A stretch of 64,000 bases of DNA from Thermoanaerobaculia bacterium (lineage in GTDB: Bacteria; Acidobacteriota; Thermoanaerobaculia; UBA5066). The notes beneath the pieces were generated by a model, which was not told where the DNA came from, ran no database searches, and was given only the letters and a program-made list of their open reading frames with translations. This document shows, piece after piece, positions 24,013 through 46,518 of the stretch. The DNA is taken from positions 186,001-250,000 of the forward strand of contig JAJVIN010000001.1 of the NCBI GenBank assembly GCA_022071945.1, given 5' to 3'. Numbering within the stretch: the stretch's first letter is position 1; every line of letters starts with the position of its first letter. The position numbers and the translations under genes are program-made.

Positions 24013-26255
24013 TCGCGGGGCGTTACAGGCTGCTGGGAGAAGCAGGAAGCGGGGGTATGGGCGTCGTCTGGGCGGCGCGCGATCTCGTACTGGAGCGGGA
24101 TATCGCCCTGAAGACCGTCATCGACCGCTCCGATCCCGTCGCCGTGGAGAGGCTGCGGCAGGAAGCCAGGGCGGCGGCCGGGATCAGCCACCCGAATGTC
24201 TGCCACGTCTTCGACCTCGTCGAGGACGCGGACACCATTTACCTCTCGATGGAGTTGCTCGAGGGCGAGACTCTCGAGAAGAGACTCGGGCGTGGGCCCA
24301 CCGGCCTCGAGGAGGCGCTGCAGATCGCGAGCGGCATCCTCGCCGCTCTCGCGGTCCTCCACCGGAAGGGAATCGTCCACCGAGACCTCAAGCCGGGCAA
24401 CGTCTTCCTGACCCCGCACGGACTGAAGGTCACCGACTTTGGTCTTGCGAGGCTCACACAGTCGGACCAACGGATCACGCAGACGGGAGCCCTCGTCGGG
24501 ACACCCCGGTACATGGCTCCCGAGCAGTGGAACGGCGAGCCCGCGACGTTCGCGAGCGACCTCTTTGCCTGTGGCGCGATCCTCTTCGAGTGCCTCTCTG
24601 GAAGGCCCGCCTTCGATGGAGAGACGATCGCCGCTGTGTGCCGGGCCGTGCTCGGCTGTGATCCTCCCCCGCTCTCCGGCGGGGCCGCTGCCTCGGCGGT
24701 CGACCGCGTCATCCGGCGAGCCCTGTTGAAACGGCCCGAGCGCCGGTTTGGATCAGCGGAAGAGATGGCGAGGGCCCTGTCGGAAGTCGAGAAGGGTGTC
24801 TCGGCCACGCAACGGCTCGAGATAAGGGCTCTCACCAGGCTTCTGGTGGCTCCGTTCCGTCTGCTGCGGCCGGACCCTGAGATCGACTACCTGAGCCTCG
24901 GTCTGGCCGACGCTCTGACGGTCACCCTGTCGACCTATCCCGGCCTTCTCCTGCGCTCGCCGCGCTCGGTCAAGGAGGTGGAATCGCGCGACCTGATGGA
25001 GGTGGCCTGCGAGGCCGGAGTCGACGCGATTCTCACGGGCTCGCTCCTGAGGGGAGGGCAGCGCGTGAGGCTCTCGGCTCAGCTCATCGAGGCGCCCCGC
25101 GGAACCGTCCTGAAGACGACGACGGCCGAAGCCCCGCTGGACGACATCTTCGCGCTTTCCGACACGCTGACCCGGGCCGTTGCCGAGGCATTGAGCCCGG
25201 TCCTGACGCCGAGAGAGGAGAGCGCGGCTGCGAGAAACCAGCCGGCCAGCAGCAAGGCGTACGACCTCTATCTCCGGGCGCAGGGCCTCCCCTTCAGCTC
25301 GGGAGCCCCCTCGGTCCTCGTCTCGGCTCGCGATCTCCTCGAGGCATGCGTGGCGGAAGACCCCGGCTTCGCCCCGGCCTGGGCGCGGCTGGGTCGGATC
25401 TGGAGAGTCCTCGGAAAGTTCGGCCACGACGACGCCGCGAAATGCCGCGCCCAGGCACAGACCTGCTTCTCGACGGCCCTTCGGCTCGACCCGTCCCTCC
25501 CGCTGACGCACAACCTCTACACCTATTTCGAGATCGAAGAGCTGGGAGAACCGCTCGGCGCCGTTCGCAGGCTCCTGGGCCGGGCCCGCCAGGGAGGAGG
25601 CGATCCGGACCTCTACGCCGGTCTGGTCGTCGCCCTGCGATTCACGGGTCTTCTGGAGGCCTCTCTCGAAGCCCACGAGAAGGCGATCCGACTCGACCCG
25701 AGAATCCAGACCAGCGTTTCCTACACCTTTCTCTTCGCCGGGAACTGGGAGCGGGCCGCGGAGGAGGACAAGGACCCGATTTCTTCCGTGAGAGCCACGG
25801 CCTTCGCCCAGATGGGCCGCGAGGACGAGGCCCGGACCATTCTCCGTGAGCTCGACCGCCGCCGGTTTCCGGGCTCGGAATCCCACTTCCTCACACTGGC
25901 CCTGGCGGCCGTCGACAAGGACAGGACGGAGCCCGTCCCGGACGTCCGTCCGTACTTCAAGGACTTCAACGATCCGGAAGGCCTCGCGCACGGCGCGATG
26001 CTGGCCGCCAAGGCCGGCGCGAATCTGGCGGCGATGGAGCTTCTGACGAGAGCCGTCGGCCATGGATTTCACGTACCGCAGTGGTTGCGTTCGAATCCGT
26101 GGCTTTCGGAGCTGAGAAGGCTCCCTGGCTTCGCTCCTCTCCTGGCCACGGCGGAAGAAGGACATCAGAAGGCCCGGGCCGTCTTCGTCGAGTGTGGGGG
26201 CGAGGCCATCCTGGGTCCACTTCCAGGCCAAGAGAGATCGAGGGGCGGAAACTAG
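24003..26255 (+). CDS. Ser/Thr protein kinase with FlgO/TolB-like region and TPRs
   Basis: A 750-residue cytoplasmic protein. The PknB-type kinase domain (about 7-275) has the glycine loop GEAGSGGMGVVWAA, catalytic loop VHRDLKPGNV, TDFGLARL and YMAPEQ, all intact. Residues about 290-400 resemble the FlgO/TolB-like module found in many acidobacterial kinases (LSLGLADALTVTLSTYPGLL, then AGVDAILTGSLLRGGQRVRL). The rest is TPR-like helical repeats with no membrane segment. The start is uncertain: TTG at 24003 is the first usual codon in frame and begins close before the glycine loop, but there is no convincing ribosome-binding site. Its stop shares the palindrome CTAG with the stop of the convergent MBL gene. 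Confidence 0.88.
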   Translation: MREIAGRYRLLGEAGSGGMGVVWAARDLVLERDIALKTVIDRSDPVAVERLRQEARAAAGISHPNVCHVFDLVEDADTIYLSMELLEGETLEKRLGRGPTGLEEALQIASGILAALAVLHRKGIVHRDLKPGNVFLTPHGLKVTDFGLARLTQSDQRITQTGALVGTPRYMAPEQWNGEPATFASDLFACGAILFECLSGRPAFDGETIAAVCRAVLGCDPPPLSGGAAASAVDRVIRRALLKRPERRFGSAEEMARALSEVEKGVSATQRLEIRALTRLLVAPFRLLRPDPEIDYLSLGLADALTVTLSTYPGLLLRSPRSVKEVESRDLMEVACEAGVDAILTGSLLRGGQRVRLSAQLIEAPRGTVLKTTTAEAPLDDIFALSDTLTRAVAEALSPVLTPREESAAARNQPASSKAYDLYLRAQGLPFSSGAPSVLVSARDLLEACVAEDPGFAPAWARLGRIWRVLGKFGHDDAAKCRAQAQTCFSTALRLDPSLPLTHNLYTYFEIEELGEPLGAVRRLLGRARQGGGDPDLYAGLVVALRFTGLLEASLEAHEKAIRLDPRIQTSVSYTFLFAGNWERAAEEDKDPISSVRATAFAQMGREDEARTILRELDRRRFPGSESHFLTLALAAVDKDRTEPVPDVRPYFKDFNDPEGLAHGAMLAAKAGANLAAMELLTRAVGHGFHVPQWLRSNPWLSELRRLPGFAPLLATAEEGHQKARAVFVECGGEAILGPLPGQERSRGGN

Positions 26256-27229
26256 TTCGGATTCAAAACGTACCGGTCGAGATTCCGTCCCTGGAGCTTC
26301 TCCACTCTTCCCTGGTCCTCGAGGTACATGAGGAACCCCAGGACCTCGGAGTAGGCGAGGTAGATGTTGAGCGTCTGGACTCTCGGGAAGAGGATCGTGA
26401 CGAGCTCCCGGACCGTCTTGGGCCCCGAGGCGAGTGCCTCGTTGAGCTTCTGAAGGCGCGCCTGGTAGCGCAGGACGACGTCGCCGTGATGCGAGTCGAA
26501 GTCGGGAATCGACCTCCCGTGACCGGTCAGGAGCCGGGCTCCGGAATGAGACGCCGAGATGTCATCCAGGCTCTCGAAGTAGCGGCTCAGGCTCCGGAAC
26601 GTCTCTCCCGGCGACTCGGGGTCCTCGTCCACGATCGCATTCGGAGTGATGTCGCGAAGGACCGTGTCCCCGGTGAAGAGGAGGCCCGTCTGGGGGATTG
26701 CGAACGTCAAGCTTCCGGGGGTGTGGCCCGGCGTCGACTGGACCGCGATCGAGTAGCCGTCGCCTGGCAACTCCTCGCCGCCCGAAAGCTCGCGCCAGGC
26801 CCTGAGGGGCTCGGCGAAGTGGTCGACAGCGGAGACGGCGACCATCACGGCCAGCCGCTCCAGGTACCCGAACCCTCCCCGTGCCAGCCGGTCGAGGAGC
26901 CGGACGGTGGGACGCTCCATCTTGAAGTGCCTCCGGTCGAGGCGGCCTCCGTAGAGGATCGCGCCGGACGTGTCGGCGATCTTGCCGGCGAGGCCGTAGT
27001 GGTCCTGGTGACCGTGCGTCAAGAGGACCCTCTCGACGTCGAAGATCGACAGACCCGCCCGCTTCAGACCATGGCGCAGGGCCTCCCAGGCGTCCTCGGT
27101 GTGGGGGCCCGTGTCGATGAGAGTGACGGGATCCGCCGCGACGAGGTGAACGTTGACGGGTCCGACCGGAAACGGTGTCGGAACCGGAATCGTGTGGACC
27201 TTCACGGACTTGATGTCTCGCGAGTTCAC
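26252..27229 (-). CDS. MBL-fold hydrolase (LACTB2/glyoxalase-II-like)
   Basis: A 325-residue metallo-beta-lactamase-fold protein. The metal motif is LLTHGHQDHYG (HxHxDH), with further ligands in STPGHTPGS and FTGDTV. A C-terminal winged-helix-like segment (RLQKLNEALASGPKTVREL onward) matches the LACTB2-type tail, which in relatives goes with hydrolase or RNase activity. A thioesterase or lactonase role is also possible next to the fatty-acid genes. It is upstream-independent of the acyl-CoA dehydrogenase gene, from which a strong hairpin separates it. Convergent with the kinase gene, overlapping by 4 bp. Confidence 0.85.
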   Translation of the reverse strand: MNSRDIKSVKVHTIPVPTPFPVGPVNVHLVAADPVTLIDTGPHTEDAWEALRHGLKRAGLSIFDVERVLLTHGHQDHYGLAGKIADTSGAILYGGRLDRRHFKMERPTVRLLDRLARGGFGYLERLAVMVAVSAVDHFAEPLRAWRELSGGEELPGDGYSIAVQSTPGHTPGSLTFAIPQTGLLFTGDTVLRDITPNAIVDEDPESPGETFRSLSRYFESLDDISASHSGARLLTGHGRSIPDFDSHHGDVVLRYQARLQKLNEALASGPKTVRELVTILFPRVQTLNIYLAYSEVLGFLMYLEDQGRVEKLQGRNLDRYVLNPN

Positions 27230-27326: not shown

Positions 27327-29084
27327 CTAGGTCCAGAGGTCGAAGGGGTAGCCGCCGGCCTCGTAGATCGCGTTGGAAATCGCGGTCGCCTCGGCGTCCT
27401 TGTTCTTCTCGAGGGATTTCATGTTGGAGACGATGCGGCGCTTGGACTGGTAACAGAACCACCGGGCGACATTGATCTCGCCCCGCGCCTTCTCCTCGCC
27501 CTTGGTCTCGATCGCCTTGGTGACGCGAGAGAGGGTGGCGATCTGGGCGTAGAGGTCGATCATGATGTTGCCGATCCGCTCGAGCTGATACTGCTTGTCG
27601 ACGACCTTCTGTCCGTGCTTCCAGACGATGATGCGCATCGCGTTGGCGAGAGCCGTGACGTACTTTCCGAGCGCGGCCGCCTCGGTTGAGAGGAGCGGGT
27701 GGACCTTCGTGAAGATCGGGTTCGTGATCTGGCCGATCAGGCGCTTCTGGGCGAAGTCGGTCAGCAGGCCGAACTTCGACAGGGGGTCCTTCAGGGCGTT
27801 CTGGACGTTCTTCAGCTCGGCCCCGACTTCCTTCATCCCCGCGAGCGCGATGTAGAGCCTGAGGATCTCGTTGGTCCCCTCGAAGATCATGTTGATGCGG
27901 CTGTCGCGCAGGGCCCGGCCGTAGGGGTACTCGTTCATGAAACCGTTGCCGCCGGCGATCTGGAGAGCCTCGTTGATGTTGTCCCAGAGGATCTCGGTGC
28001 CGAACACCTTGCAGCAGGCGCCTTCCAGCGAGTAGTCGGGCATGTAGCGGTCGACGAGGGCTGCCGTGAGGTAGACCATCGACTCGAGAGCGTAGGTGTT
28101 CGCCGTCATCTTGGTGATCTTGTGACGGATCATCTCGAAGTCGCCGATCTTGGTCTTGAACTGCTTGCGCTGGGTCGCGTGTTCGGCCGCCAGCTTCAGC
28201 ATCATCTTCGAGCCGCCCACGGCGCCCGCGCCGAGAGAGGTGCGGCCGGTGTTGAGGGTCTCGACGGCGACCCTGAAGCCATTACCCTTTCCGCCGATGA
28301 TGTTCCAGGCCGGGACCCGGCAGTTGTCGAGGATGATCTGGCAGGTCGAGGAGCCGCAGAGCCCGAGCTTCTTCTCTTCCACGCCCCTGGAGAGTCCGGG
28401 CAGGTTGCCGTTTTCGTCCGCGATGACGGCGAAGCAGACGATTTCCTTGTGCTTCTCGGGAATGTCGGAGGGGATGCGGGCGAAGATCGAGAAGAACCTC
28501 GCGAAGCCTCCGTTGGAGATCCACTGCTTGGTGCCGTTCAGGATGTACTCGTCGGTCTCCGGGTCATAGACGGCGGTGGTCTTCAGGGAGGCGGCATCGG
28601 AGCCGGCTTCCGGCTCGGTGAGGCAGAACGCTCCGACCATCTCGCCCGTCGCCAGCTGCGGAAGCCACTTCTTCTTCTGCTGGTCGCTCCCGAACAGGAG
28701 CAGCGGCTTGATGCCGATCGACTGGTGGGCGCCGATGACGATCGCGGCGGAGGCGTCGAGGGGCCCGACCGTCTCCATCGTCTTGCAGTAGGCGGTGGCG
28801 GAAAAGCCGCTGCCGCCGTACTCCTCTGGAATGGTCATCCCCATGGCGCCGAGGTCTCCGAGGCCCTTGACGACGTCCCTCGGGAAGAAGTGGTCGTGAT
28901 CGATCTTCTCCGAGTCGATGTGGGCGGCGTCGAAGTCCTTGTAGGCATCGGTGAAGGCCGCGACGATCTCCTTCGTATCCTCCGGAATGTCGGGATACGG
29001 GAAGATGTACGACTCCTCGATGTGGCCGAGGAAGACGGCCTTCAAGAAGGAGGTGATTTCGGTTTCAGTCTTGACAGTCGACAT
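27327..29084 (-). CDS. Acyl-CoA dehydrogenase (VLCAD/ACAD9-like length)
   Basis: A 585-residue flavoenzyme that introduces the alpha-beta double bond into acyl-CoA, the first step of beta-oxidation. It shows CLTEPEAGSDAASL and WISNGGFARF for FAD/substrate contacts, and IFEGTNEILRLY carrying the catalytic glutamate. An extra helical C-terminal region of about 150 residues fits very-long-chain-type enzymes rather than the shorter 380-residue class. Last gene of the tetR-thiolase-fadB operon: 3 bases after the FadB-like stop, with GAGGAG inside the end of that gene serving as ribosome-binding site. Confidence 0.93.
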   Translation of the reverse strand: MSTVKTETEITSFLKAVFLGHIEESYIFPYPDIPEDTKEIVAAFTDAYKDFDAAHIDSEKIDHDHFFPRDVVKGLGDLGAMGMTIPEEYGGSGFSATAYCKTMETVGPLDASAAIVIGAHQSIGIKPLLLFGSDQQKKKWLPQLATGEMVGAFCLTEPEAGSDAASLKTTAVYDPETDEYILNGTKQWISNGGFARFFSIFARIPSDIPEKHKEIVCFAVIADENGNLPGLSRGVEEKKLGLCGSSTCQIILDNCRVPAWNIIGGKGNGFRVAVETLNTGRTSLGAGAVGGSKMMLKLAAEHATQRKQFKTKIGDFEMIRHKITKMTANTYALESMVYLTAALVDRYMPDYSLEGACCKVFGTEILWDNINEALQIAGGNGFMNEYPYGRALRDSRINMIFEGTNEILRLYIALAGMKEVGAELKNVQNALKDPLSKFGLLTDFAQKRLIGQITNPIFTKVHPLLSTEAAALGKYVTALANAMRIIVWKHGQKVVDKQYQLERIGNIMIDLYAQIATLSRVTKAIETKGEEKARGEINVARWFCYQSKRRIVSNMKSLEKNKDAEATAISNAIYEAGGYPFDLWT

Positions 29085-29087
29085 GGG

Positions 29088-31292
29088 TCACGGCTCCTCT
29101 GGGCTGAAGTTCTTCCCGCCGCGAACGAGTTCCAGCAGGTATGGAGAGGGAGTGAATCTGGATCCGATTGAAGACGCGAGGCTTTCGAGAGCGGTTGCGA
29201 TCTCCTTCAGCCCGCGGGAATCCGCGAACGCCATGAGACCACCGCGGAACGGTGGGAATCCGGTGCCGAATATCATTGCGAGATCGAGCTTTCCCGCATC
29301 CGGAACAATGCCCTCGGCCAGGCAGAACGCGCCCTCGTTGACCATCGGATAGATGAGGCGCGCCTCGAGCTGTTCCTGCTTCATCGTCGACTGCGAGGGA
29401 ACGGGCAAGCCGAGCTCCTTGTAGACGTCGAGATCGGGTCCGACGCGCTTGTCCCCCTCGTACTTGTAGAAGCCCTTTTTCGTCTTGCGGCCCAGCCGCT
29501 CCGCGTTGACGAGCTTGAGGAAGGAGGGATCGAGCGGCATCCGCTCGGGCCAGACCGCCGTCAACGTCTCGGCCCCCTTGGCGGCCACGTCGATCCCGAC
29601 GTCGTCGAGAAGCTCGATCGGCCCGACCGGCATCCCGAAAGCCCGCATTGCGTGGTCGATCGCCTCCATCGGAACCCCCTCGAGCAGAAGGCGCACGGCC
29701 TCGCCGAGATAGGGGGAGAGGATCCGGTTGACGAGGAAGCCGGGCGCGTCCTTGACGACGACGGGCGTCTTCCCCCACTTCTTGGCCAGATCGAAGATGG
29801 TGGCCGTGACGGCGGGATCGGTCTTGGCGCTGAAAATCACCTCGACGAGAGGCATCTTGTGCACGGGATTGAAGAAGTGCATTCCGCACACGCGCTCTGG
29901 GTGCTTGGCCTCGGCGGCGATCTCGGCGATGGGAAGGGTCGATGTATTCGACGCGAAGATCGCGTCCTCTCGTGAGACGGCCTCCCACTCCTTCAGGACC
30001 GCGCGCTTGACCGCCATCTTCTCCAGGACTGCCTCCACAGTGACGTCGCACTGTGCGAATCCAGTGTAGTCCAGCGAGGCGGAGAGAAGCGACATTTTCG
30101 AGGCGAATTCGGACTTCGTCATCCGCCGCTTGTCGAGCTTCTCCTTCCAGATCCTCGCGGCCGCGCCGTAGCCGGCGGCAAGCTGCTCCACCTTGATGTC
30201 CTTCATCCGGACCGGCAGGCCGCGGTCGGCGGCGAGCTGGGCGATGCCGCCCCCCATGACGCCGGCACCCAGGACGCCGACGCGGGAGACCTCCCGCGGT
30301 TTGACCCCGGCCGGGGCGCCCGTCTCCTTCTTGACGTCCTCCATCCGGAAGAAGAGGTTGACGAGGGCCTTCATCACCGGGGTCCCGACCAGCTGCTCGG
30401 CCGACTCGACCTCGAGGAGGAGGGCCTCCGGGAAGGGCCTGGAAAAGCCCTTTTCAATCGCGTCCAGAGCGGCGAGAGGCGCCGGATAGTTGCCGTGGGT
30501 TTCTTTCAGAACGGTGGCCCGCGCCTGCTTGAAGACGAGACCCTGGCCCAAGCCCTCCATGAGCCTGTCCTGGGGAGCGGCCGCCTCGGCCCTGGCGGGT
30601 CCGCCTCCGGGCCCGGCATTGGCCCTCTTGGCCGTTCCGAACTTCCCGCGGGTGAACTCCCGGGCGTAGTCGGCAAGGAGAACCTGCGGCACCACTTCGT
30701 CCACGAGGTGCGCCCGCTTGGCCCTCTTGGCGTCGAGGGCCTTGCCAGCCAGGATGATGTCGAGGGCCGTCGTCAAGCCGGTCACGCGAGGAAGCCGGGT
30801 CGTCCCGCCCCACGCGGGCAGGATGCCGAGCTTGACCTCGGGCAGGCCGATCGACGTCTTTTTCGAATCGGAGGCGAGGCGCCAGTCCATGGCAAGAGCG
30901 GTCTCGCAGCCGCCGCCCAGGCAGGCCCCGTCGATGGCGGCCACCGTCGGATAGCGGAGATTGGCGAGCTTCGACATCACCTGCTGCCCGCGCAGGACTC
31001 CCTCGCGGACGTCTTTCTTCTTCGCGCCCGCGATCTCCCTGACGTCGGCGCCCGCGATGAAGACATCGGGTTTGCCCGAGATGAGGAGGAGGCCCCGAAC
31101 ATCGAGCCGGCGTCCCAGCTCGTCGAGGAACTGCTCGAACTCATCGATGACGGACCGGGAGTACTTGTTGACCTTCTCGCCCGGACAGTCGAAGACGAGC
31201 GTGGCGAGGCCGTCGGTTTCGACAGTCAGCCTGAAGTTCGTCCCAGCCTTGCTGGTCTTGATCTGTCCAGGCTCCACGAGAGTGCTGCTCAT
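29088..31292 (-). CDS. fadB: Enoyl-CoA hydratase / 3-hydroxyacyl-CoA dehydrogenase (FadB/FadJ-like)
   Basis: A 734-residue bifunctional enzyme for the second and third steps of beta-oxidation. The N-terminal crotonase half has VFIAGADVREIAG and GACLGGGCETALAMDWR. The NAD-binding half starts at GVLGAGVMGGGIAQLA (GxGxMGxGIA) and includes MHFFNPVHKMPLVEVI and the C-terminal 3HCDH domain. The true start is the ATG at 31292, which overlaps the thiolase stop (ATGA); a longer frame upstream is thiolase sequence read out of frame. Probably acts with the thiolase as an alpha2beta2-type complex, which is known for the family and inferred here. Confidence 0.93.
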   Translation of the reverse strand: MSSTLVEPGQIKTSKAGTNFRLTVETDGLATLVFDCPGEKVNKYSRSVIDEFEQFLDELGRRLDVRGLLLISGKPDVFIAGADVREIAGAKKKDVREGVLRGQQVMSKLANLRYPTVAAIDGACLGGGCETALAMDWRLASDSKKTSIGLPEVKLGILPAWGGTTRLPRVTGLTTALDIILAGKALDAKRAKRAHLVDEVVPQVLLADYAREFTRGKFGTAKRANAGPGGGPARAEAAAPQDRLMEGLGQGLVFKQARATVLKETHGNYPAPLAALDAIEKGFSRPFPEALLLEVESAEQLVGTPVMKALVNLFFRMEDVKKETGAPAGVKPREVSRVGVLGAGVMGGGIAQLAADRGLPVRMKDIKVEQLAAGYGAAARIWKEKLDKRRMTKSEFASKMSLLSASLDYTGFAQCDVTVEAVLEKMAVKRAVLKEWEAVSREDAIFASNTSTLPIAEIAAEAKHPERVCGMHFFNPVHKMPLVEVIFSAKTDPAVTATIFDLAKKWGKTPVVVKDAPGFLVNRILSPYLGEAVRLLLEGVPMEAIDHAMRAFGMPVGPIELLDDVGIDVAAKGAETLTAVWPERMPLDPSFLKLVNAERLGRKTKKGFYKYEGDKRVGPDLDVYKELGLPVPSQSTMKQEQLEARLIYPMVNEGAFCLAEGIVPDAGKLDLAMIFGTGFPPFRGGLMAFADSRGLKEIATALESLASSIGSRFTPSPYLLELVRGGKNFSPEEP

Positions 31293-32545
31293 GCTGCCTC
31301 CACGATGATCGAAGCTCCCTGTCCCCCGCCGATGCACAGGGTCGCCAGGCCCTTCGCGACTTTCCTGCGGCGCATCTCCATGAGAAGGGTCAGGACGAGA
31401 CGGGTCCCCGAGGATCCGACCGGATGACCCAGGGCGATGGCGCCTCCGTTCACGTTCAAGATCTCCTCGTCGATCGGGCCGAGCTCCGGGTCGTTCTTGA
31501 AGGCCACGAGATTCGCCAGCACCTGCGCGGCAAAGGCCTCGTTCATCTCGATGAGGCCGAGGTCCTTCACTTTCAATCCGCCTCGCCTGAGAGCGACGGG
31601 CGTGGACCGAGCGGGTCCGAGTCCCATTCGCTCGGGCTCGAGACCTCCGAAACCCCAGCTGACGACCCGGCCAATGGGGCGGAGTTTTCTCTTGGAGAGG
31701 AACTCTTCAGAAACGAGAACGACGGCCGCGCCTCCGTCGGTGATCTGCGACGAATTCCCGGCCGTGACGCTCCCGTACTTGCGGTCGAAGAACGGCTTGA
31801 GCTTCGACAGGGCGTCGAAGCTCTGGTTTTCCCGAATCCCGTTGTCCGCGCTCGCGAGGGAATCGAACTTCGGCGGAATCGGCACCGGGACGATCTCGCC
31901 GGCGAGTTTTTCCCTGGCCGCCGTGGCGCGCTGGTGAGACCTGAGCGCGAAGCGGTCCTGCATCTCCCGCGAGAGCTTGTTCTCCTTGGCCAGGATCTCG
32001 GCCGTTTCGCCCATGTTGAGGTCGCAGACGGGATCCGTCAGACCCTGCTTGAGACCGATGACGGGATCGAGGAGCTCGGTCCAGGGAACCTTCGAGAAGG
32101 CGAGGAGCTTGTCGGCCGGCGACCGGGCCATGCCGACCTGGGTGAGGGCCTGCTTGACCGGCTCGGAGTAGAGGAAGGGGATCAGGGACATGCTCTCCGC
32201 GCCTCCGGCGAGGACGACGTCCGCCTCACCCGTCTGGATCAGGCGCGCTCCCTGCACGATCGACTCGATACCGGACGCGCAGTTGCGGGAGACGGAGAAG
32301 GCCGTGCGGTCTTTCGGGACCCCGGTTCTGAGGGCGATGACCCGGGCGATGTTGGCGGCATCGACGGGAGTCGCGATGTTGCCGAACACGACCTGGTCCA
32401 CCTCCGCCGCCTCGACTCCGGCCCGGGCCAGGGCTTCGACCGAAGCGGCGCGGCCGAGATCGACGGCCGACACCTCCTTGAACTCGGTTCCGGCCTTGAG
32501 AAACGGTGTGCGCGCCCCGTTGACGATGAAGGCAGCTCGACTCAA
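31289..32545 (-). CDS. fadI: Acetyl-CoA C-acyltransferase (thiolase, FadA/FadI-like)
   Basis: A 418-residue thiolase. The nucleophilic cysteine is in SVSRNCASGIESI, the base histidine in ALGHPVGSSGTR, and the second cysteine in LCIGGGQGASI. It cleaves 3-ketoacyl-CoA to acetyl-CoA. I start it at TTG 32545, which overlaps the TetR stop (TTGA) and precedes SRAAFIVNGARTPF, the expected N-terminus; GGGGAA lies upstream. The frame continues into tetR but that extension is not thiolase-like. Coupled translation places it under the same FadR-type control as tetR. Confidence 0.92.
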   Translation of the reverse strand: MSRAAFIVNGARTPFLKAGTEFKEVSAVDLGRAASVEALARAGVEAAEVDQVVFGNIATPVDAANIARVIALRTGVPKDRTAFSVSRNCASGIESIVQGARLIQTGEADVVLAGGAESMSLIPFLYSEPVKQALTQVGMARSPADKLLAFSKVPWTELLDPVIGLKQGLTDPVCDLNMGETAEILAKENKLSREMQDRFALRSHQRATAAREKLAGEIVPVPIPPKFDSLASADNGIRENQSFDALSKLKPFFDRKYGSVTAGNSSQITDGGAAVVLVSEEFLSKRKLRPIGRVVSWGFGGLEPERMGLGPARSTPVALRRGGLKVKDLGLIEMNEAFAAQVLANLVAFKNDPELGPIDEEILNVNGGAIALGHPVGSSGTRLVLTLLMEMRRRKVAKGLATLCIGGGQGASIIVEAA

Positions 32546-33261
32546 GAGGATTCCCCTTTCCCGCGGCTTCTTTGCCGCGGCTTCTTCTCCTTGACTGTCT
32601 CCCGGTTCTCGAAGCCCGGCACCAGCGTGTCGATCAGCTGGCGGCCGCTGGCCGCCGGCTTTGCTTCTCCCAGGATCAGCCACTCGGACAGGATCTCGTC
32701 GGCTCCGCCGAAGATGATGCGGACGGCGAGACGTGGATTGAGGTTGGACCGGAACTCCCCCCGCTTCTGGCCATCCCGGATCACGCTCTCGAGGAGCCGG
32801 AAGTACTCGACGAGCTTGGAGCGGGAGAACCGCTCGACGAGCCGCGCGGACCGCCTGAGCTCGATCTGGAAGACGGAGGCGAGGTGCCGGTCGCCCGAGA
32901 GGAAGTCGATGTGGAGTCCGACCATCTTCGCGAGCCTCTCCGAGGCAGGAAGGTCCTCTGCGTCCAGCCGCCGCCCTTCGGCGAGGACCTCGTCCATTGT
33001 CTCATCGAAGACGACTCCCAGAAGGTCTTCCTTGTTGTGGAAGTAGAGGTAGACCGTTCCCTCGGCGACACCCGCTTCCGAGGCGATCTCGGCGATCCGG
33101 GCTTCGTGGAAACCTCGCTCGCCGAAGACCCGGATGGCGGCGGCGAGAAGACGTTTCCGCTTGTCGGGGTCGGCCCCGGTGAGGGGCTTGAGCGGCTTCT
33201 CTTGCGGGGCGGGTGATCTCGAGCGCGAACGGGCGGGGCCCGAGGATGAGTGAGCCATCAC
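32542..33261 (-). CDS. fadR: TetR-family regulator, probable FadR of the beta-oxidation operon
   Basis: A 239-residue repressor. The N-terminal TetR HTH is at about 37-82 (RIAEIASEAGVAEGTVYLYF), followed by a helical ligand domain like that of the FadR_C class. It starts at GTG 33261 or ATG 33258. First gene of the operon, overlapping the thiolase gene by 4 bp. The start codon lies within a perfect TGAGTGA-N4-TCACTCA palindrome, the geometry of Bacillus FadR sites, so it most likely represses itself and the operon until long-chain acyl-CoA accumulates. The ligand is inferred from context. Confidence 0.87.
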   Translation of the reverse strand: MMAHSSSGPARSRSRSPAPQEKPLKPLTGADPDKRKRLLAAAIRVFGERGFHEARIAEIASEAGVAEGTVYLYFHNKEDLLGVVFDETMDEVLAEGRRLDAEDLPASERLAKMVGLHIDFLSGDRHLASVFQIELRRSARLVERFSRSKLVEYFRLLESVIRDGQKRGEFRSNLNPRLAVRIIFGGADEILSEWLILGEAKPAASGRQLIDTLVPGFENRETVKEKKPRQRSRGKGESS

Positions 33262-33264
33262 TCA
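33247..33264. promoter_or_regulatory. FadR-type operator
   Basis: TGAGTGAGCCATCACTCA: perfect 7-bp arms with a 4-bp centre. It differs from the known B. subtilis FadR consensus (TGAATGA-N4-TCATTCA) only by one symmetric base change per arm. It spans the TetR start codon, just downstream of the -10 box, where a repressor would block initiation. It also lies about 80 bases from the divergent kinase start. Confidence 0.65.
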
Positions 33265-33266
33265 TA

Positions 33267-33295
33267 AACCTATCGCGAGGCCGGTCGTTCGTCAA
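33267..33295 (-). promoter_or_regulatory. Promoter of the beta-oxidation operon
   Basis: TTGACG (33290-33295), a 17-bp spacer, then TAGGTT (33267-33272) on the minus strand. The GTG at 33261 begins 6 bases after the -10 box, so the transcript may be leaderless; no Shine-Dalgarno precedes it. Same geometry as the defence-operon promoter at 17010-17038. Confidence 0.6.
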
Positions 33296-33340: not shown

Positions 33341-34894
33341 ATGGACCTACTCGGCAAGAACATCGGAAGATTCTGTCTCACCTCGGAGATCGGCCGGGGC
33401 GGGATGGGCGTCGTCTACGTCGGCATCGACCAGTTCCTCAAGAGGTCGGTCGCCATCAAGCTCATCTCCCCCGACGCGGGCCACACCCCGGACGCCGTCG
33501 AAAGGTTCTTCCGGGAGGCACGGGCCGTCGCGCGGCTCGACCACCCCAACATCGTGAAGATCTACGAGGCGGGCCAGATCGAGGGCTTCCCCTTCATCGC
33601 CATGGAGCTCGTCAGGGGCCGCGATGCGCGCGCCGTGATCGCCGACAAGCCGCCACTCTCCACCAAGCTCGACATCATGGCCCAGGTGCTCGACGGACTC
33701 GGCCACGCTCACGCCAACGGCGTCATCCACCGCGACATGAAGCCCGCGAACATCCTGGTCGACGGATCGGGGGTCGCCAAGATCATCGACTTCGGCCTCG
33801 CGCGCCTCACCGACGACAACAGGGACCTCACCCGCGGGCAGGTCTTTGGCAGCGCCTGCTACATGGCGCCCGAACAGATCATGGACCCCAGGGGCGTCGA
33901 CTGGAGGGTCGACATCTACGCGGCAGGCATCATCCTCTTCCAGTTCCTCGCCAACCGCGTTCCCTTCCTCGGCAAGTCCCTGCCCGAGACCCTCTCCCGC
34001 ATCGTCCAGGAGCCGTTCGTCTTTCCGGACCACTCCGAGCTGGACGTACCCCCGGAGATCGGCGAGGTCGTCAAGCTGTGCCTCGAGAAGGACCGGAACA
34101 GGAGGCCGCAATCGGCGCGTCAGCTGGCGGAGGAGCTCAGACGCCTCAGGACCCTGTTTTCCGAGAGCCAGACAGTGGTCGAGCCGGTCCTTCAAACGAG
34201 CCAGACGCGGTCCGCGATCGTGATGTCCGAGGACTCGGATACGGTGCTCGACGCCGATTCCTCGACCGCCATCGGCGTCACGGCCAAAGCCCTGGCCCCT
34301 CCCGCGGTTTCCGCGAGGACAGTCCCACCCCTGGCTCCATCGGCACGCACGCTTCCCGCCTCCGCACAGCTTCACGACTACGACCTCTCGGCCGGTGGCG
34401 AGGCGCCCTTGCCCCAGGCTGGCCTCGCGAATAGACCGTCCTCTCCCCTCACCCGTCATCCCTACCTCACGGGCGCCGCCATCGGGGTCGCGCTTCTCGC
34501 CGTGGCGCTTCCGCTCGTTTTCGCGCTGAGAGGGTTCCGCTCCGCGCCGCCGGCCGTGCCGGCTCCGAGTCCGGCTCTGCCGGCCGTGACTCCCGCCCCG
34601 TCAGCCCCGCCGGCCCGCGAGGACACGCCGCCCCCCGCCCTCGTTTCCGTGACTCCGGCTCCGGGGGTCCTCTCGCTGGAAATCAGGTCGGGCCAGGACT
34701 ACACATTCGCCGTCAAGGCTCCGCTTCCCGCCTCGCGGCTCACCTGGCGCGTCAACGACGAGGAAGTGGGTTCCGGCCCCGAGTTTCGGTACCGCGCGGG
34801 CAAGGGGGGGTTCAAGGACCTCGTGTCCGTGACCTCGGTGACGCCGGGCCGGGAAGAACCGGAAACCCTGATCTGGTACGTCACCAGCTACTGA
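33341..34894 (+). CDS. Membrane-anchored PknB-type Ser/Thr kinase
   Basis: A 517-residue kinase. The cytoplasmic kinase domain (about 10-270) has GRGGMGVVYVGID, VAIKLIS, VIHRDMKPANILVD, IIDFGLARL and YMAPEQ, all catalytic residues present. A linker of about 110 residues leads to a membrane helix at about 370-393 (LTGAAIGVALLAVALPLVFA). An extracytoplasmic Pro/Ala-rich stalk and a small beta domain at about 435-517 may sense an envelope signal. Transcribed divergently from the fatty-acid regulator; no cognate phosphatase gene is adjacent. Confidence 0.9.
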   Translation: MDLLGKNIGRFCLTSEIGRGGMGVVYVGIDQFLKRSVAIKLISPDAGHTPDAVERFFREARAVARLDHPNIVKIYEAGQIEGFPFIAMELVRGRDARAVIADKPPLSTKLDIMAQVLDGLGHAHANGVIHRDMKPANILVDGSGVAKIIDFGLARLTDDNRDLTRGQVFGSACYMAPEQIMDPRGVDWRVDIYAAGIILFQFLANRVPFLGKSLPETLSRIVQEPFVFPDHSELDVPPEIGEVVKLCLEKDRNRRPQSARQLAEELRRLRTLFSESQTVVEPVLQTSQTRSAIVMSEDSDTVLDADSSTAIGVTAKALAPPAVSARTVPPLAPSARTLPASAQLHDYDLSAGGEAPLPQAGLANRPSSPLTRHPYLTGAAIGVALLAVALPLVFALRGFRSAPPAVPAPSPALPAVTPAPSAPPAREDTPPPALVSVTPAPGVLSLEIRSGQDYTFAVKAPLPASRLTWRVNDEEVGSGPEFRYRAGKGGFKDLVSVTSVTPGREEPETLIWYVTSY

Positions 34895-35024
34895 CACCGG
34901 CTTGCCTTCAAGTCGAGACCACCGAGGGCTCGGTTCGTATGCCCCACGTCACACATTCCTGATCCCCGCCGTTCTGATCATGCCAGACAGGTCGAGCGTG
35001 GCGCGGCGGCGTCAGGAGAGGGGG

Positions 35025-35073
35025 CCCCTCACCCGCCCGCCGGCACCCTCTCCCCGCCGCCGCGGGGCGAGGG
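35025..35073. repeat. REP-like palindromic element, copy C
   Basis: CCCCTCACCCGCCCG, CACCCTCTCCCCGCC and GCGGGGCGAGGG share the plan of copies A and B. It lies between the convergent kinase (ends 34894) and FGE-like (ends 35221) genes. That 326-base gap otherwise holds only the repeat at 35067-35151 and no gene. Confidence 0.5.
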
Positions 35074-35151
35074 AAAGAGATGGGCTCACCCGGAGCGAGG
35101 CCCCGGAGTCGATTCCGGCGAGGGAAAGAGAGGGGCTCACCCGGAGCGAGG
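35067..35151. repeat. 34-bp direct repeat, 51-bp period
   Basis: A 34-base sequence starting GCGAGGGAAAGAGA and ending CTCACCCGGAGCGAGG occurs at 35067-35100 and again at 35118-35151 with one mismatch. It continues from REP copy C and appears to be a partial tandem amplification of its edge. No coding role. Confidence 0.7.
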
Positions 35152-35220
35152 GGGAACCATGCTCATCAGGAAGGCGAACGGGAATGAGGATTGCCCTCGG
35201 CAGTTCGTGAAGCCGCGGGC

Positions 35221-37401
35221 TCAGGGCTTGACGGGCTGAGCCTCCGTCCCTGGCTCCCGGACCTTCTCCGGCTGCGGTTCGTCGTTCAGCCAGGAAGGCA
35301 CCTCCGCGGTGTTCGAGGCGCACCGGAAGCTCAGGTCGGCGTCGCGGCGGACCGGCGCCCGCTTGTCCCTGGCCGAAACCTCGAGCGCTTTCTCGATTCC
35401 GGGGAAGGAGGCACTCCTGGCGCCACCGCGGACGACCTTGAAGGTCTCGCGCGCGACATTGCGGACCGAGGCCTCGTCGTTGCCCGGATAGGGTGCGAAC
35501 CACGAGGACGTCCACTCCCAGTGGTTCGTGTGCATTCCCTCGATCTTGAAGGGACTGGCCAGCCCCGGCCACCGGTTCACCGCGTACTCCTGGAACGGGT
35601 TGTACTGCTTGCGCTCCTTTCCCGGGGCGTCGTCGTAAGGGAAGTCGAGGCCGTCCGTGCCGCGGGCGGCCTTCTCCCACTCGAACTCGTCGGGCAGCCG
35701 CTTTCCGATCCACCGGCAGTAGGCTTCGGCCTCCGCGTAGCCGATCCCGGAGACGGCGTAGTCGGCCTTCTGCGGCTCGGGGAGGGCGTCCTTCCAGGTC
35801 TCCGGCACCTTGGCCCCCGTCGCCTGGACGAAGAACTGGTACTGAGCGTTGGAGACCTTGTACCGGTCGAGGACATACGGTTCGGTTGAGGCGTTCTTGT
35901 TCTTGGGCTTGGACTCGGGTGTCGGACCGCCGCCGAGAGTGAAGCGTCCGCCCGGGATCATCTCCATGAACGCCCAGAGTTTCTTCTTCTGATCCCGGAT
36001 CTGAGTCCGGGCCCTGTCGCGGCCCTCCTGGGCCTCGGTCTGCCCGGGCACGACCGCGAGCGCCTTCTCGAACCAGACGATCGCGTCGAACAGTCTCCCT
36101 TCCCTGGACGCTGTCTTGCCGCTCTCGAGCCTCCTGGCCACTTCCTGGAGCGTGGCGGCGACCGAGTCCTTCGCCTTCTGGTTCGCCGGGAACTTCGAGG
36201 CGAGTTCCTTGGCCGTTTCGTAGACCAGCCCGAAGTTGCCTTTCTCCGTTTCGCGATCGAGGGAAGCCTCGAGCTTTCGGCGCACCTCGTCGATCTCGGA
36301 GATCGCGTCCTGGGCCACCCCGAGGAAGGGGTAGTTGTCGCGGATGACCTCGTACTTCCTGCGTGCTTCCTCAAGGCGGCCCCCCTTGAGGGATTCCTCC
36401 GCCGACTTCAGAGCCTGATCGTTCTTCTCGAGGATCTCGTTGTACTTCTTCTCGCCGAACTCCGATCTCGGGAAGTTGAAGAGGAGCCGGTTCACCTCCG
36501 AGATGGCGTCCCGGTACAGCCCTTTCAGCATGAAGCCCTCGATGTTGTTGCGGTACGACTGGTAGATCTTCTGTCCCGCGACGCTCTCCATGGCGGCCCG
36601 GGAGTACTTCAGCTGGAGCCTCACGTAGGTCTCGAGCGCCACGGGCTCGTCGGGGAAGAAGCGCAGGAGCTCCGCCGCCTCGGACTGTGCCGCCGCGAGG
36701 TTGCTGGCCTCGAGCGACTGGAGTTTCAGGATGCGCTGGCCGAAGAGGCGGTCGATCTTCGAACGGACCCGTTCGCGGTCAGCGACCGCGGGAGGGGGCG
36801 GCACGTTCTGGACCTCGTCGAAGTTCTTCTTCGCCTCGAGAAGATCTCCCGAGTCGGCCTGGGACTCCGCGAGCCGCAGGAGTCCCTCGGCTTCGATCGG
36901 ACGGGGGGCCGGAGCGTCCCCGACGACTCCCGCGGCCTTTCGGGCCTCGGCGACCAGGGCCACGACTCCGGGCTTGGCGCTTTGAGGCAAGGACCTCTGG
37001 TAGGCGGGACTCAGCTCGTAACACTTGCGAAAGTGCTCGAGGGCCTTGCGCCGCGACTCCGCCATCGGCCGAGCCTCGTTGTAGAGAGCCCAGGAGAACC
37101 CGAGCTCCCAGTGTCCATCCGGATCCCGGTCGTTGCCGGTGACGTAGATCGTGAGATCGTCAATGGCCTCGCGATACCGGAGCTGCTGCCTTCTGGCGAT
37201 CCCGGAGAGCAGATAGGCGGTCTTCTGCTCCTCGACGTGCTCGATTGAGGGTTGTGCCGCCACAGGTTGGGATTCCGCCGGCTTTGGCTTCGGTTTCTGA
37301 GAAGCCGCCGGGCGTGTGCCCTGGGCAAGAGCCGAAGTCGCAGCCACAATCCCCGCCCAGACAGCCCCTACGATCAGCGGGCGGAATCTCGCTATCAGCA
37401 T
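35221..37401 (-). CDS. Exported TPR protein with FGE-sulfatase (SUMF1-like) domain
   Basis: A 726-residue protein. A hydrophobic N-terminal export signal (about 5-27) is followed by a Pro/Lys-rich linker, then about 400 residues of TPR-like and coiled helices. The C-terminal FGE-sulfatase domain begins near MEMIPGGRFTLGGG and includes YKVSNAQYQFFVQATG, CRWIGKRLPDEFEWEKAARG and VVRGGARSASFPG, ending in SFRCASN. Only the structural FRCA cysteine is visible; the active-site cysteine pair of true formylglycine-generating enzymes is not, so sulfatase activation is unlikely. Similar domains serve as binding or regulatory modules beside Ser/Thr kinases such as the convergent one here. ATG start with GGAG 8 nt upstream. 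Confidence 0.83.
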   Translation of the reverse strand: MLIARFRPLIVGAVWAGIVAATSALAQGTRPAASQKPKPKPAESQPVAAQPSIEHVEEQKTAYLLSGIARRQQLRYREAIDDLTIYVTGNDRDPDGHWELGFSWALYNEARPMAESRRKALEHFRKCYELSPAYQRSLPQSAKPGVVALVAEARKAAGVVGDAPAPRPIEAEGLLRLAESQADSGDLLEAKKNFDEVQNVPPPPAVADRERVRSKIDRLFGQRILKLQSLEASNLAAAQSEAAELLRFFPDEPVALETYVRLQLKYSRAAMESVAGQKIYQSYRNNIEGFMLKGLYRDAISEVNRLLFNFPRSEFGEKKYNEILEKNDQALKSAEESLKGGRLEEARRKYEVIRDNYPFLGVAQDAISEIDEVRRKLEASLDRETEKGNFGLVYETAKELASKFPANQKAKDSVAATLQEVARRLESGKTASREGRLFDAIVWFEKALAVVPGQTEAQEGRDRARTQIRDQKKKLWAFMEMIPGGRFTLGGGPTPESKPKNKNASTEPYVLDRYKVSNAQYQFFVQATGAKVPETWKDALPEPQKADYAVSGIGYAEAEAYCRWIGKRLPDEFEWEKAARGTDGLDFPYDDAPGKERKQYNPFQEYAVNRWPGLASPFKIEGMHTNHWEWTSSWFAPYPGNDEASVRNVARETFKVVRGGARSASFPGIEKALEVSARDKRAPVRRDADLSFRCASNTAEVPSWLNDEPQPEKVREPGTEAQPVKP

Positions 37402-37588
37402 CCCTCACACTCCAGATGCCCCGTACTCGGGCGGCGGGAAAGGATTTGGACCGCGTCAGATCTTACCCCGCTTACCCTCGTCGCACCGATGCCGGATGGA
37501 GTCGCCAGCCAGGCCGGAAAGCCTCCCGAGTCCCTCGGGTGAGAGCACGCCCTTTGCTATGCTAGCTGCCGAAAATCCAGGAGGTTTC

Positions 37589-38506
37589 ATGAGACTCATC
37601 ACGCGTGGCGACGTGGACGGAATCATGTGCGCGGTCCTGCTCAAGGCCGCTGGCGTCGTCGATTCGTTCCTCCAGGCCCATCCGAAGGACGTGCAGGACG
37701 GCCTCGTCAAGGCAACGCCCGAGGACATCGTCTGCAATCTGCCGTTCATCGAGGGCTGCGGCCTCTGGTTCGACCATCACTCGAGTGAGGACACGGGAGT
37801 CCGCAGGCCCGCGAAATTCGAGGGCCGCTACGAGATCGCTCCGAGCGCGGCGCGGCTCGTCTATGAGTACTACCTTCCCTCCCACCCCGAGCTGTCCCGT
37901 TTCCTGGCACTCCTCTCGGTGGTCGACCGGTTCGACAGCGCCCAGCTGACCATCGAGGACGTCAAGAACCCCGAGCCGGCGATGCTCCTGTCCTTTCTCG
38001 TCGATCCCCGCACCGGCCTCGGGCTCCACCACCACTTCCGGATCAGCAACAAGCAGATGACCGACTCTCTGCCCGGCCTCCTCATCGAGCACTCGCCCGA
38101 GGAGGTCCTCGCGCTCCCGGACTTTCAGGAGCGGGTCGCCGCCTACGAGAAGGACCAGGAGACGGCCCGGGCGTTTTACAAGGAGCACTCGCGGGTCGAG
38201 GGGAACGTCCTCGTCACCGACCTGCGAGGCGTGGCGTCCGTTCCGCCGGCCAACCGGTTCCTCATCTACACGATCGACGGGTTCGAGAAGACCAACATCT
38301 CGATCCGCATCTCCGCGGCGAAGGGTGGAGAGAAACTCTCGATCCAGGCGGGCCACAACATCTTCAACCGGACCTCGAAGGTCAACGTGGGCGAACTGAT
38401 GGCGAAGTTCGGCGGAGGCGGTCACCGGGGAGCCGGCACCTGCCAGGTCGACGCGACGACGGCAGAGGCCGTCCTCGCACGGATCCTGGAAGCAGCTCGC
38501 GAGTGA
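37589..38506 (+). CDS. DHH/DHHA1 family phosphoesterase
   Basis: A 305-residue enzyme of the DHH superfamily. N-terminal RGDVDGIMCAVLL and WFDHHSSED supply metal-binding Asp/His residues, and the C-terminal GGGGHRGAGTC is the DHHA1 substrate loop. Relatives are exopolyphosphatases, RecJ-like exonucleases and nano-RNases or cyclic-dinucleotide phosphodiesterases; the motif set does not decide between them. The start is the ATG at 37589 with AGGAGG upstream; a much longer open frame upstream is non-coding. The nearby GGDEF gene makes a c-di-GMP/pGpG role conceivable but unproven. Confidence 0.87.
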   Translation: MRLITRGDVDGIMCAVLLKAAGVVDSFLQAHPKDVQDGLVKATPEDIVCNLPFIEGCGLWFDHHSSEDTGVRRPAKFEGRYEIAPSAARLVYEYYLPSHPELSRFLALLSVVDRFDSAQLTIEDVKNPEPAMLLSFLVDPRTGLGLHHHFRISNKQMTDSLPGLLIEHSPEEVLALPDFQERVAAYEKDQETARAFYKEHSRVEGNVLVTDLRGVASVPPANRFLIYTIDGFEKTNISIRISAAKGGEKLSIQAGHNIFNRTSKVNVGELMAKFGGGGHRGAGTCQVDATTAEAVLARILEAARE

Positions 38507-38521
38507 ACGAGCCGGAGCGCG

Positions 38522-38549
38522 CGAGTCCGGGCCTCCTCGCCCGGACTCG
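38522..38549. terminator. Hairpin between convergent DHH and histidine-kinase genes
   Basis: CGAGTCCGGGC, loop CTCCTC, GCCCGGACTCG: a perfect 11-bp stem filling the gap and abutting the histidine-kinase stop. There is no T-run, but its position suggests two-way termination. Confidence 0.5.
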
Positions 38550-43634: not shown

Positions 43635-45425
43635 TCAGTCCTTCGACCCAGCGTACATCTGATCGATCAGGTCCTTGTACTTCGTGTCGACGACGCGCCT
43701 CTTGACGGAGAGCTTCGGTGTCAGCTCTCCGCCCTCGATCGTGAACTCGGCGGGCAGGAGCATGAAGCGGCGGATCATCTGTTCGTGGGGCTTGTCGGTG
43801 TTGGCGCGATCGAGGATCTTCTGGTAGATCGCCTTCACGCGCTCGTCCGCGATCAGGTCCTCGGCCCTCTTGCCCGCCATCCCGTTGCTGTTCGCCCAGT
43901 CGGCGAGTTTTTCGAGATTCGGGACGATCAGGCACGAGAGGAACTTCCGCCGGTCGCCAATGATGACGGCCTGAGAGATGAACGGCTCGGTTTTCAGGGC
44001 GTTCTCGAGCGGTGCGGGAGCGATGTTCTTTCCGTTCGAGTTGACGATGAGTTCCTTCTTGCGGTCGGTGATCTTCAGGAACCCGTCCTCGTCCACGATC
44101 CCGATGTCGCCGGTGTGGAACCATCCATCCGGGTCGATCGCTTCCCGGGTGGCCTCGGGCTTGTTGAAGTACCCCTTCATGATGTTGGGCCCGCGGGCGA
44201 GGATCTCGCCGTCCTCGGCAATCTTCACCTCGACCCCGGGGAGGACCCGCCCGACCGTGCCCAGCTTCCAGGCCGAGGGCGTGTTGACCGCGATGACGGG
44301 GCTCGTCTCGGTCAGGCCATAGCCCTCGTAGATCTCCACCCCGATGCCCCAGAAGAACTGCGCCAGATCCTTGGCGAGAGGAGCTCCTCCGGAGATCGCG
44401 AGGCGGAAGCGGCTGCCGAGAGCCGCCCGGATCTTCCCGTAGACGAGCTTCTCGAACAGGAAGTGCTTGGCCGCCAGGACGGCGCCGGGAGACTTCTTTG
44501 CCTGCCGCAGCTCCAGGACCTCCTTGCCTGTCTCGATGGCCGACTCGAAGATCTTCTTCTGAAGGGGCGTCCCCTTGGCGACCTTGTCGTGAATGCGGCC
44601 GTAGACCTTCTCGTAGACACGGGGAACCGCGCCGAAGAGGGTGGGGTTCACCTCGAGGAGGTTGTCCTTCAGGGCGTCGATGGACTCCGCGAAGGCAATC
44701 GTGGCTCCCCTGTGGTAGTAGCAGTACTCGATGAGTCTCTCGAAGACGTGGGAAAGCGGCAGGAAGGAGAGGGCCACGTTCGAAGAATCGAACGGCAGCA
44801 CCTGGCATCCGGCCAGCACGTTGGAGACGAAGTTGTTCTGGGTGAGCATGGCTCCCTTGGGCTCACCCGTGGTGCCAGATGTGTAGATGAGGGTCGCGAG
44901 GTCGTCGGGAGTGCGCGAGTCGGCCCGCTGGTCGAAGGCCGACGGATTGCTCTCGTGGATCTTCTTTCCCTCGGCGAGGAGGGACTCGTAGGAGATCAGG
45001 CCCGGCTCGTGCAGGTCGTTGAAGACGACGACGTGCTTCAACTTTGGGCAGTTGCCCTTGGCATCCAGCACCTTCTTGGCCTGCTCGTCCGTGGAGGCAA
45101 AGGCGACGACCGTGCCGCTATCCTGCAGGAGGTACTCGGCCTGAGCCGACACCATCGTCGGGAAGATCGGCACCATGACGGCCCCGTAGCACTGACAGGC
45201 AAAGTCGACCGTGGCCCATTCCGTGCGGTTCTCGGAGAGAAGCGCGACCCGGTCGCCCTGCCCCACCCCGAGACCCTCGAGCGCGCAGGAGACCCACTTG
45301 ACGCGTTCGATGAACTCGTTCGACGAGATCGGGTGCCACTGCCCGTCCTTCTTGTACAAGTGGAGGTCGGGCTTGTTGAGAGACTTCAGGTTTCGAAAGA
45401 TGTCGACCAGAGTCCGGGGCGTCAT
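43635..45425 (-). CDS. fadD: Long-chain acyl-CoA synthetase (AMP-forming)
   Basis: A 596-residue ANL-superfamily ligase. The P-loop is LIYTSGTTGEPKGAML, the adenine motif YEGYGLTETSPV, and the hinge/C-terminal motif WFHTGDIGIVDEDGFLKITD. It activates free fatty acids to acyl-CoA with ATP, feeding the beta-oxidation operon 10 kb away. The length and N-terminus fit the FAA1/FadD15 branch rather than the E. coli FadD type. The start is the ATG at 45425, GGAGG 5 nt upstream; a 12-codon upstream extension lacks support. Single gene, divergent from the SDR gene. Confidence 0.92.
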   Translation of the reverse strand: MTPRTLVDIFRNLKSLNKPDLHLYKKDGQWHPISSNEFIERVKWVSCALEGLGVGQGDRVALLSENRTEWATVDFACQCYGAVMVPIFPTMVSAQAEYLLQDSGTVVAFASTDEQAKKVLDAKGNCPKLKHVVVFNDLHEPGLISYESLLAEGKKIHESNPSAFDQRADSRTPDDLATLIYTSGTTGEPKGAMLTQNNFVSNVLAGCQVLPFDSSNVALSFLPLSHVFERLIEYCYYHRGATIAFAESIDALKDNLLEVNPTLFGAVPRVYEKVYGRIHDKVAKGTPLQKKIFESAIETGKEVLELRQAKKSPGAVLAAKHFLFEKLVYGKIRAALGSRFRLAISGGAPLAKDLAQFFWGIGVEIYEGYGLTETSPVIAVNTPSAWKLGTVGRVLPGVEVKIAEDGEILARGPNIMKGYFNKPEATREAIDPDGWFHTGDIGIVDEDGFLKITDRKKELIVNSNGKNIAPAPLENALKTEPFISQAVIIGDRRKFLSCLIVPNLEKLADWANSNGMAGKRAEDLIADERVKAIYQKILDRANTDKPHEQMIRRFMLLPAEFTIEGGELTPKLSVKRRVVDTKYKDLIDQMYAGSKD

Positions 45426-45574
45426 CGAGTCCTCCAATAAATATGGACGTAGGTTCCCCACTCCCCGGGGACCGGAGCGCCTCTGGCCCGGGCGGCCGCC
45501 GTGGACCCCTGCCGGAACGAGAGCCGGCGGGGGAATTCCGGGCTGAGTCCTGTGGCTAGTTTACACTCGATCGC

Positions 45575-46340: not shown

Positions 46341-46474
46341 GTCCGAGCCAAGCTCGGCGTCCGAGCCAAGCTCGGTATCCGAGCCAAGCTCAGTATCCGA
46401 GCCAAGCTCGGCATCCGAGCCAAGCTCGGCATCCGAGCCAAGCTCGGTATCCGAGCCAAGCTCGGCATCCGAGC
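46341..46474. repeat. 18-bp hairpin-forming tandem repeat (minisatellite)
   Basis: Seven full units of TCCGAGCCAAGCTCGGYA (46341-46466) and a partial eighth. Unit three has CTCAG for CTCGG. Each unit holds CCGAGC-CAA-GCTCGG, a 6-bp stem with a 3-nt loop, so the RNA or single-stranded DNA can form a row of seven hairpins. It lies 26 bases after the SDR stop and 45 bases before the lipoprotein start. Not CRISPR: no spacers. May act as terminator/attenuator or be slippage-expanded. Confidence 0.95.
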
Positions 46475-46518
46475 CATAATCCCGACGTGGGATCCAATCG
46501 ATCTGCAGGGGGACTCGC

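Follow-up and report, generated by a model that had tools for sequence, protein, structure and literature searches.

FadR of Bacillus subtilis represses the fad operons until C14-20 acyl-CoA releases it, and the Bacillus FadR regulon controls the regulator's own gene together with beta-oxidation operons (PMC4525379). In Sulfolobus acidocaldarius, a TetR repressor also named FadR has only four genomic sites, controls lipases and beta-oxidation, and is released by acyl-CoA through ligand contacts that are not homologous to the bacterial ones (PMC6449355). The AcuR-AcuI-DddL operon of Rhodobacter sphaeroides begins with its TetR gene, carries an inverted-repeat operator by the promoter, and is expressed as a leaderless, autorepressed transcript (PMC3017554). 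The operator of Thermus thermophilus FadR is TTRNACYNRGTNYAA (PMC5597230).

The locus compared with these systems lies in a 64,000-nucleotide stretch of a Thermoanaerobaculia genome, the whole of which is referred to below as the window. Its features are as follows.

33267..33295, minus strand: predicted sigma70-type promoter of the tetR operon (-35 TTGACG, 17 bp spacer, -10 TAGGTT; the -10 box ends 8 nt before the ATG)
33247..33264, no strand assigned: predicted FadR operator; the minus strand reads TGAGTGATGGCTCACTCA and includes the tetR start codon
32542..33258, minus strand: tetR/fadR, encoding a YsiA-type TetR repressor of 238 aa (TetR_C_4 'YsiA-like' domain, 8.5e-20; best PDB matches are Bacillus FadR)
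31289..32545, minus strand: acetyl-CoA C-acyltransferase (thiolase), by profile matches; directly after tetR
29088..31292, minus strand: FadJ/FadB-like multifunctional enzyme, by profile matches; its start overlaps the thiolase stop
27327..29084, minus strand: acyl-CoA dehydrogenase of the FadE/ACADV type, by profile matches; 3 bp after fadJ
26252..27229, minus strand: MBL-fold hydrolase, likely the final operon gene; 97 bp gap, position kept in relatives
43635..45461, minus strand: long-chain acyl-CoA ligase (FadD), by profile matches; upstream region without the operator

With the FadR (YsiA) regulon of B. subtilis and B. halodurans the locus shares the TetR subfamily, the fold, and the operator word and spacing found in Bacillota loci, and the same control of the regulator's own gene and of beta-oxidation is predicted. 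It differs in belonging to another phylum, in one symmetric base change per operator arm, in an operator embedded in the tetR start codon, in a tetR that is probably leaderless, in the lipase genes of its predicted regulon, and in an etfBA of its own that lacks a site. Like the S. acidocaldarius regulon it has four genomic sites and a (here predicted) coupling of lipases with beta-oxidation; that regulon is archaeal and forms one clustered locus, whereas the lipase genes here are unlinked. The AcuR operon is likewise led by its TetR gene and has an inverted-repeat operator at the promoter, but its ligand is acrylate, its other genes and its operator differ, and its leaderless start was shown where ours is predicted. 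T. thermophilus FadR is a TetR repressor of fatty-acid degradation, as proposed here, with a different operator. The palindrome at 33247-33264 is very probably the operator of the YsiA/FadR-type TetR protein whose gene it overlaps, with this protein proposed as an acyl-CoA-released repressor of the fad operon and of lipases.

A preliminary description of this DNA had claimed a palindrome TGAGTGA-N4-TCACTCA at 33247-33264, and TGAGTGAGCCATCACTCA, 18 bp in length with perfect 7+7 symmetry, is present at exactly that position. The symmetry was dropped as evidence and is uninformative by itself, because perfect 7-N4-7 inverted repeats are no commoner than chance in the GC-rich window (7 observed, approximately 7.2 expected). 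The description had further claimed the spacing of Bacillus FadR sites with one symmetric change per arm. The Bacillus-type operator word used here was read directly from Bacillota loci, in 12 of which TGAATGA-N4-TCATTCA stands directly upstream of a TetR gene (9 exact, 3 with one mismatch); relative to it, the 33247-33264 site carries one A>G or T>C change per arm, placed symmetrically, as claimed. The general word TGANTGA-N4-TCANTCA was found at four sites in the whole 6.17 Mb genome, with no additional ones at one mismatch, against chance expectations under an independent-base model of 0.06 exact sites and 2.8 sites with up to one mismatch; in the reversed (backwards) genome used as control it was absent, even with one mismatch allowed. 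The palindrome is thus unremarkable as a bare inverted repeat, but highly specific as a word. With two mismatches allowed, this genome gave 9 sites (control, 4), nearly all of them within reading frames, and these were not used.

All four genome sites stand before lipid-use genes: one at tetR, two before a LipA-type lipase and its chaperone, and the last before the gene of a second secreted lipase-like protein, so that a scan for the motif before other fatty-acid genes yielded three further sites, all before lipase-type genes outside the window. Within the window, the scan returned no site beyond 33247-33264. This agrees with the earlier statements that no second copy lies upstream of acs or of fadD, near which the best match is 5 mismatches off.

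The regulator matched PF08359 (YsiA-like C-terminal domain, 8.5e-20) and PF00440 (7.1e-17), both above cut-off. Among all NCBIfam models its best match was Bacillus FadR, NF053878, at 154 bits; because this lies below the 200-bit equivalog cut-off, the protein was classed as a homologue working like FadR, not as an NF053878 equivalog. Its best PDB sequence matches were 1vi0 (titled 'transcriptional regulator'), B. subtilis FadR 3whb and B. halodurans FadR 5gp9/5gpa. An AlphaFold model (mean pLDDT 86) was used in a fold search, in which 11 of the top 13 PDB matches were titled Bacillus FadR and the other 2 were 1vi0, at 33-35% identity; the top fold matches were 3whb, 1vi0, 5gpc, 3whc, 5gpa and 5gp9, with TM (target) values of 0.80-0.89. 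Judged by its sequence and its modelled structure, the protein is a YsiA/FadR homologue, nearest to Bacillus FadR in both respects, and this grouping by Pfam, NCBIfam best match, PDB sequence and fold bears out the FadR-type operator reading first given to the site. The recognition helix reads VAEGT in same-family TetR proteins and VADGT in most others. A co-variation of this D>E exchange with the A>G exchange in the operator was considered and is not claimed, VAEGT occurring also with TGAATGA, and TGAGTGA arms also with VADGT.

The thiolase, FadB-like and acyl-CoA dehydrogenase genes follow the TetR gene as described previously. They are co-directional with tetR and the junctions are overlaps or 3-bp gaps, a layout that would fit control of the beta-oxidation genes from the tetR promoter; the gene order from tetR on is the same in same-family relatives. 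In same-family loci where fadD was found, it is the next gene upstream of tetR, in the same orientation. Here the two genes, adjacent in those relatives, are separated by approximately 10 kb (33341-43447) containing a Ser/Thr kinase, a hybrid sensor kinase and other genes. A tandem repeat (18-bp unit, 7.5 copies) is located at 46342-46476, where it overlaps open frames of both strands at their ends.

Ligands vary among many TetR repressors of CoA-thioester catabolism, and the NCBIfam FadR cut-off is not reached; both would suit a regulator that uses the same operator and responds to another acyl-CoA (short-chain, branched or aromatic), the operon then serving a different degradation route. We regard this as unlikely, given the ACADV/ACAD9-type dehydrogenase domain and the FadJ-type enzyme in the operon, the adjoining of fadD and tetR in relatives, the lipase genes that carry the same site, and FadR as the nearest structures. 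Control of the divergent Ser/Thr kinase gene (33341-34894, plus strand), in addition to or instead of the operon, would fit a kinase start 77 bp from the site; it is very improbable, since same-family relatives have fadD and not the kinase upstream of tetR, yet keep the site, and the promoter spacing matches the tetR side.

The site had been placed between the -10 box and the tetR start, and this holds with TAGGTT as the -10 box; the site additionally covers the ATG. The minus strand is laid out as TTGACG-N17-TAGGTT-TA-TGAGTGATGGCTCACTCA, with the ATG (33258-33256) inside the operator; an in-frame GTG at 33261 is also possible as a start. The promoter was aligned across the 12 same-family genomes with a readable tetR site (this genome and 11 others). 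Little is invariant apart from TTGAC, the TA of the -10 box and TGAGTGATGGCTCAYTCA; the operator block reads TGAGTGATGGCTCA(C/T)TCA, varying at the single C/T position, and the remaining sequence diverges. The distance from the -10 box to the ATG is 7-8 nt in 11 of the 12 genomes and 6 in G001 (best-scoring hexamer). Neither GGAG nor AGGA occurs in the 20 nt before the tetR ATG in any of the 12. From the position of the ATG within the operator, 7-8 nt past the -10 box, and from the lack of a Shine-Dalgarno sequence, we predict that the tetR mRNA is probably leaderless. Orthologues of tetR at six loci from Myxococcota and related groups (L115, L116, L122, L128, L133 and L183) have TGAATGGYGRTTCATTCA-type sites with an in-frame ATG within the site; because these sites, too, enclose a start, the placement of the operator over the start codon may have more than one origin.

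In every same-family genome the palindrome falls within the first codons, as it would if it were kept for encoding Met-Ala-His-Ser and not as an operator. In the coding half, however, Ala is encoded by GCT and Ser by TCA, codons that serve for 7% and 3% of these residues, respectively, in the fad genes of the window. All 12 genomes retain both rare codons, and coding constraint does not account for this. The bases upstream of the ATG are equally invariant, orthologues with another N terminus have the word outside the coding region, and the same word stands before unrelated proteins, so that the sites at lipase and etf genes mostly refute a coding origin, and we give it next to no weight.

Among 61 genomes (own, family, order and class), the TetR protein was detected in 36 (E<=1e-20). 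Site and TetR occurred together in 34, TetR alone in 2, the site alone in 1 and neither in 24 (Fisher p=1.3e-13, a test that treats the 61 genomes as independent though they are not, and that rests on two slightly different site patterns). In G006, the genome with the site only, the site is near a contig end; of the two with TetR only, G042 has TGAATGAAGGTTCAGTCA at its tetR, missed by the narrower R/Y pattern, and G030 has a decayed site only. The base change in both arms of the tetR site was seen only in this genome and in G006. TetR orthologues outside the family (approximately 40% identity, other phyla included) carry the Bacillus word TGAATGA-N4-TCATTCA. The motif is kept in orthologous promoters both near and far: in 12 of 12 readable same-family genomes and in 56 of 80 named loci (Acidobacteriota, Myxococcota, Deltaproteobacteria, KSB1, Bacillota and others), where the Bacillus-type word stands by the tetR start with at most one mismatch. 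The preliminary description had named loss of the motif from such promoters as grounds for refuting its reading, which passes this check. Across the 44 longest loci, the 14.5 kb near tetR hold 20 exact sites and the other 537 kb hold 4. The nearest relatives with a name carry the labels Acidobacteria, Thermoanaerobaculia or Holophagales.

Two of the remaining genome sites lie 80 bp apart before the LipA-type lipase gene on C2, which is followed by the lipase chaperone gene (PF03280, in Pfam the proteobacterial lipase chaperone); the two genes together are at L005 7905-9771. The lipase is closest to lactonizing lipase 1ex9 (373 bits). It was probably acquired horizontally, because orthologues were absent from the 40 relatives searched (E<=1e-40); nonetheless, this presumed acquisition carries two FadR-type sites. 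The fourth site, on C45 (L006), precedes the gene of the second secreted lipase-like protein, which had no Pfam match and is labelled a lipase on the basis of a weak PDB match to BlEst2 (7e-4) and a THSFGG motif resembling GxSxG. Only 2 of the 5 same-family members have a clear site in the promoter of this gene: among the four close orthologues, G006 has clear sites, G005 and G003 have decayed site-like sequence at the same place, and G011 has none.

The lipase promoters also share CTGGCAT-N5-T(T/C)G just 5' of the operator or of an operator-like palindrome (L005, G000:C2, upstream of 9771; L006, G000:C45, near 9940; L094, G006, upstream of 1300). This resembles a -24/-12 sigma54 promoter, and RpoN is encoded in the same genome as the C2 and C45 lipases.

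Elsewhere in the family, the site stands before etfBA in G010 (exact) and in G001 and G007 (one mismatch), unlike in the present genome, whose etfBA promoter has no site; in G006, one site precedes fadB-thiolase and two precede the lipase-like orthologue. The genes that the word precedes in sister families include acyl-CoA dehydrogenase, fadB-thiolase and thiolase-led genes, along with others. These names were read from the translations, and Pfam confirmed them for one thiolase and one ETF subunit. The predicted regulon would thus extend from the beta-oxidation operon to lipase genes. The same operator word before the fad operon and two lipase-type genes suggests that the cell probably turns on the digestion and the burning of fat at the same time.

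The sequence itself supplies the site, its conservation, the gene context, and the family and predicted fold of the regulator. From these we infer binding, an acyl-CoA ligand, the direction of repression, the leaderless start and the regulation of the lipases, which would operate as follows. When fatty acids are absent, a FadR dimer would sit on the 18-bp site that lies between the -10 box and the start codon, blocking initiation of the tetR-thiolase-fadJ-acyl-CoA dehydrogenase(-MBL) operon, its own gene included; the two sites before the LipA-type lipase and chaperone, and the one before the second lipase-like gene, would place these under the same control. Incoming fatty acids would be converted by FadD into long-chain acyl-CoA, which would bind FadR and release it from the DNA, and lipid hydrolysis and beta-oxidation would rise together. 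A leaderless tetR mRNA would keep the level of the repressor low and tied to promoter occupancy.

No description of a FadR regulon in Acidobacteria was found in the literature searched, which is not proof of absence from all literature. An acyl-CoA-released FadR repressor is a known type; what appears new in the searched literature is its presence in Acidobacteriota, the fused block of promoter, operator and start codon, and the unlinked lipase targets. We lean, if only slightly, towards regarding the arrangement as novel: in this acidobacterial family, promoter, FadR operator and start codon fused within approximately 50 bp and giving a leaderless autorepressed transcript, with an apparently acquired LipA-type and a second secreted lipase-like gene under the same acyl-CoA-released repressor, an unlinked lipolysis and beta-oxidation regulon of a kind undescribed in bacteria in the literature searched. 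On this reading, a regulatory code known experimentally from Bacillus would be extended to Acidobacteriota and to neighbouring phyla, in which regulation is little known. The operator sites would predict which genes respond to fats, and with the lipase sites it can be tested whether a regulator that responds to acyl-CoA acts directly on bacterial lipase genes.
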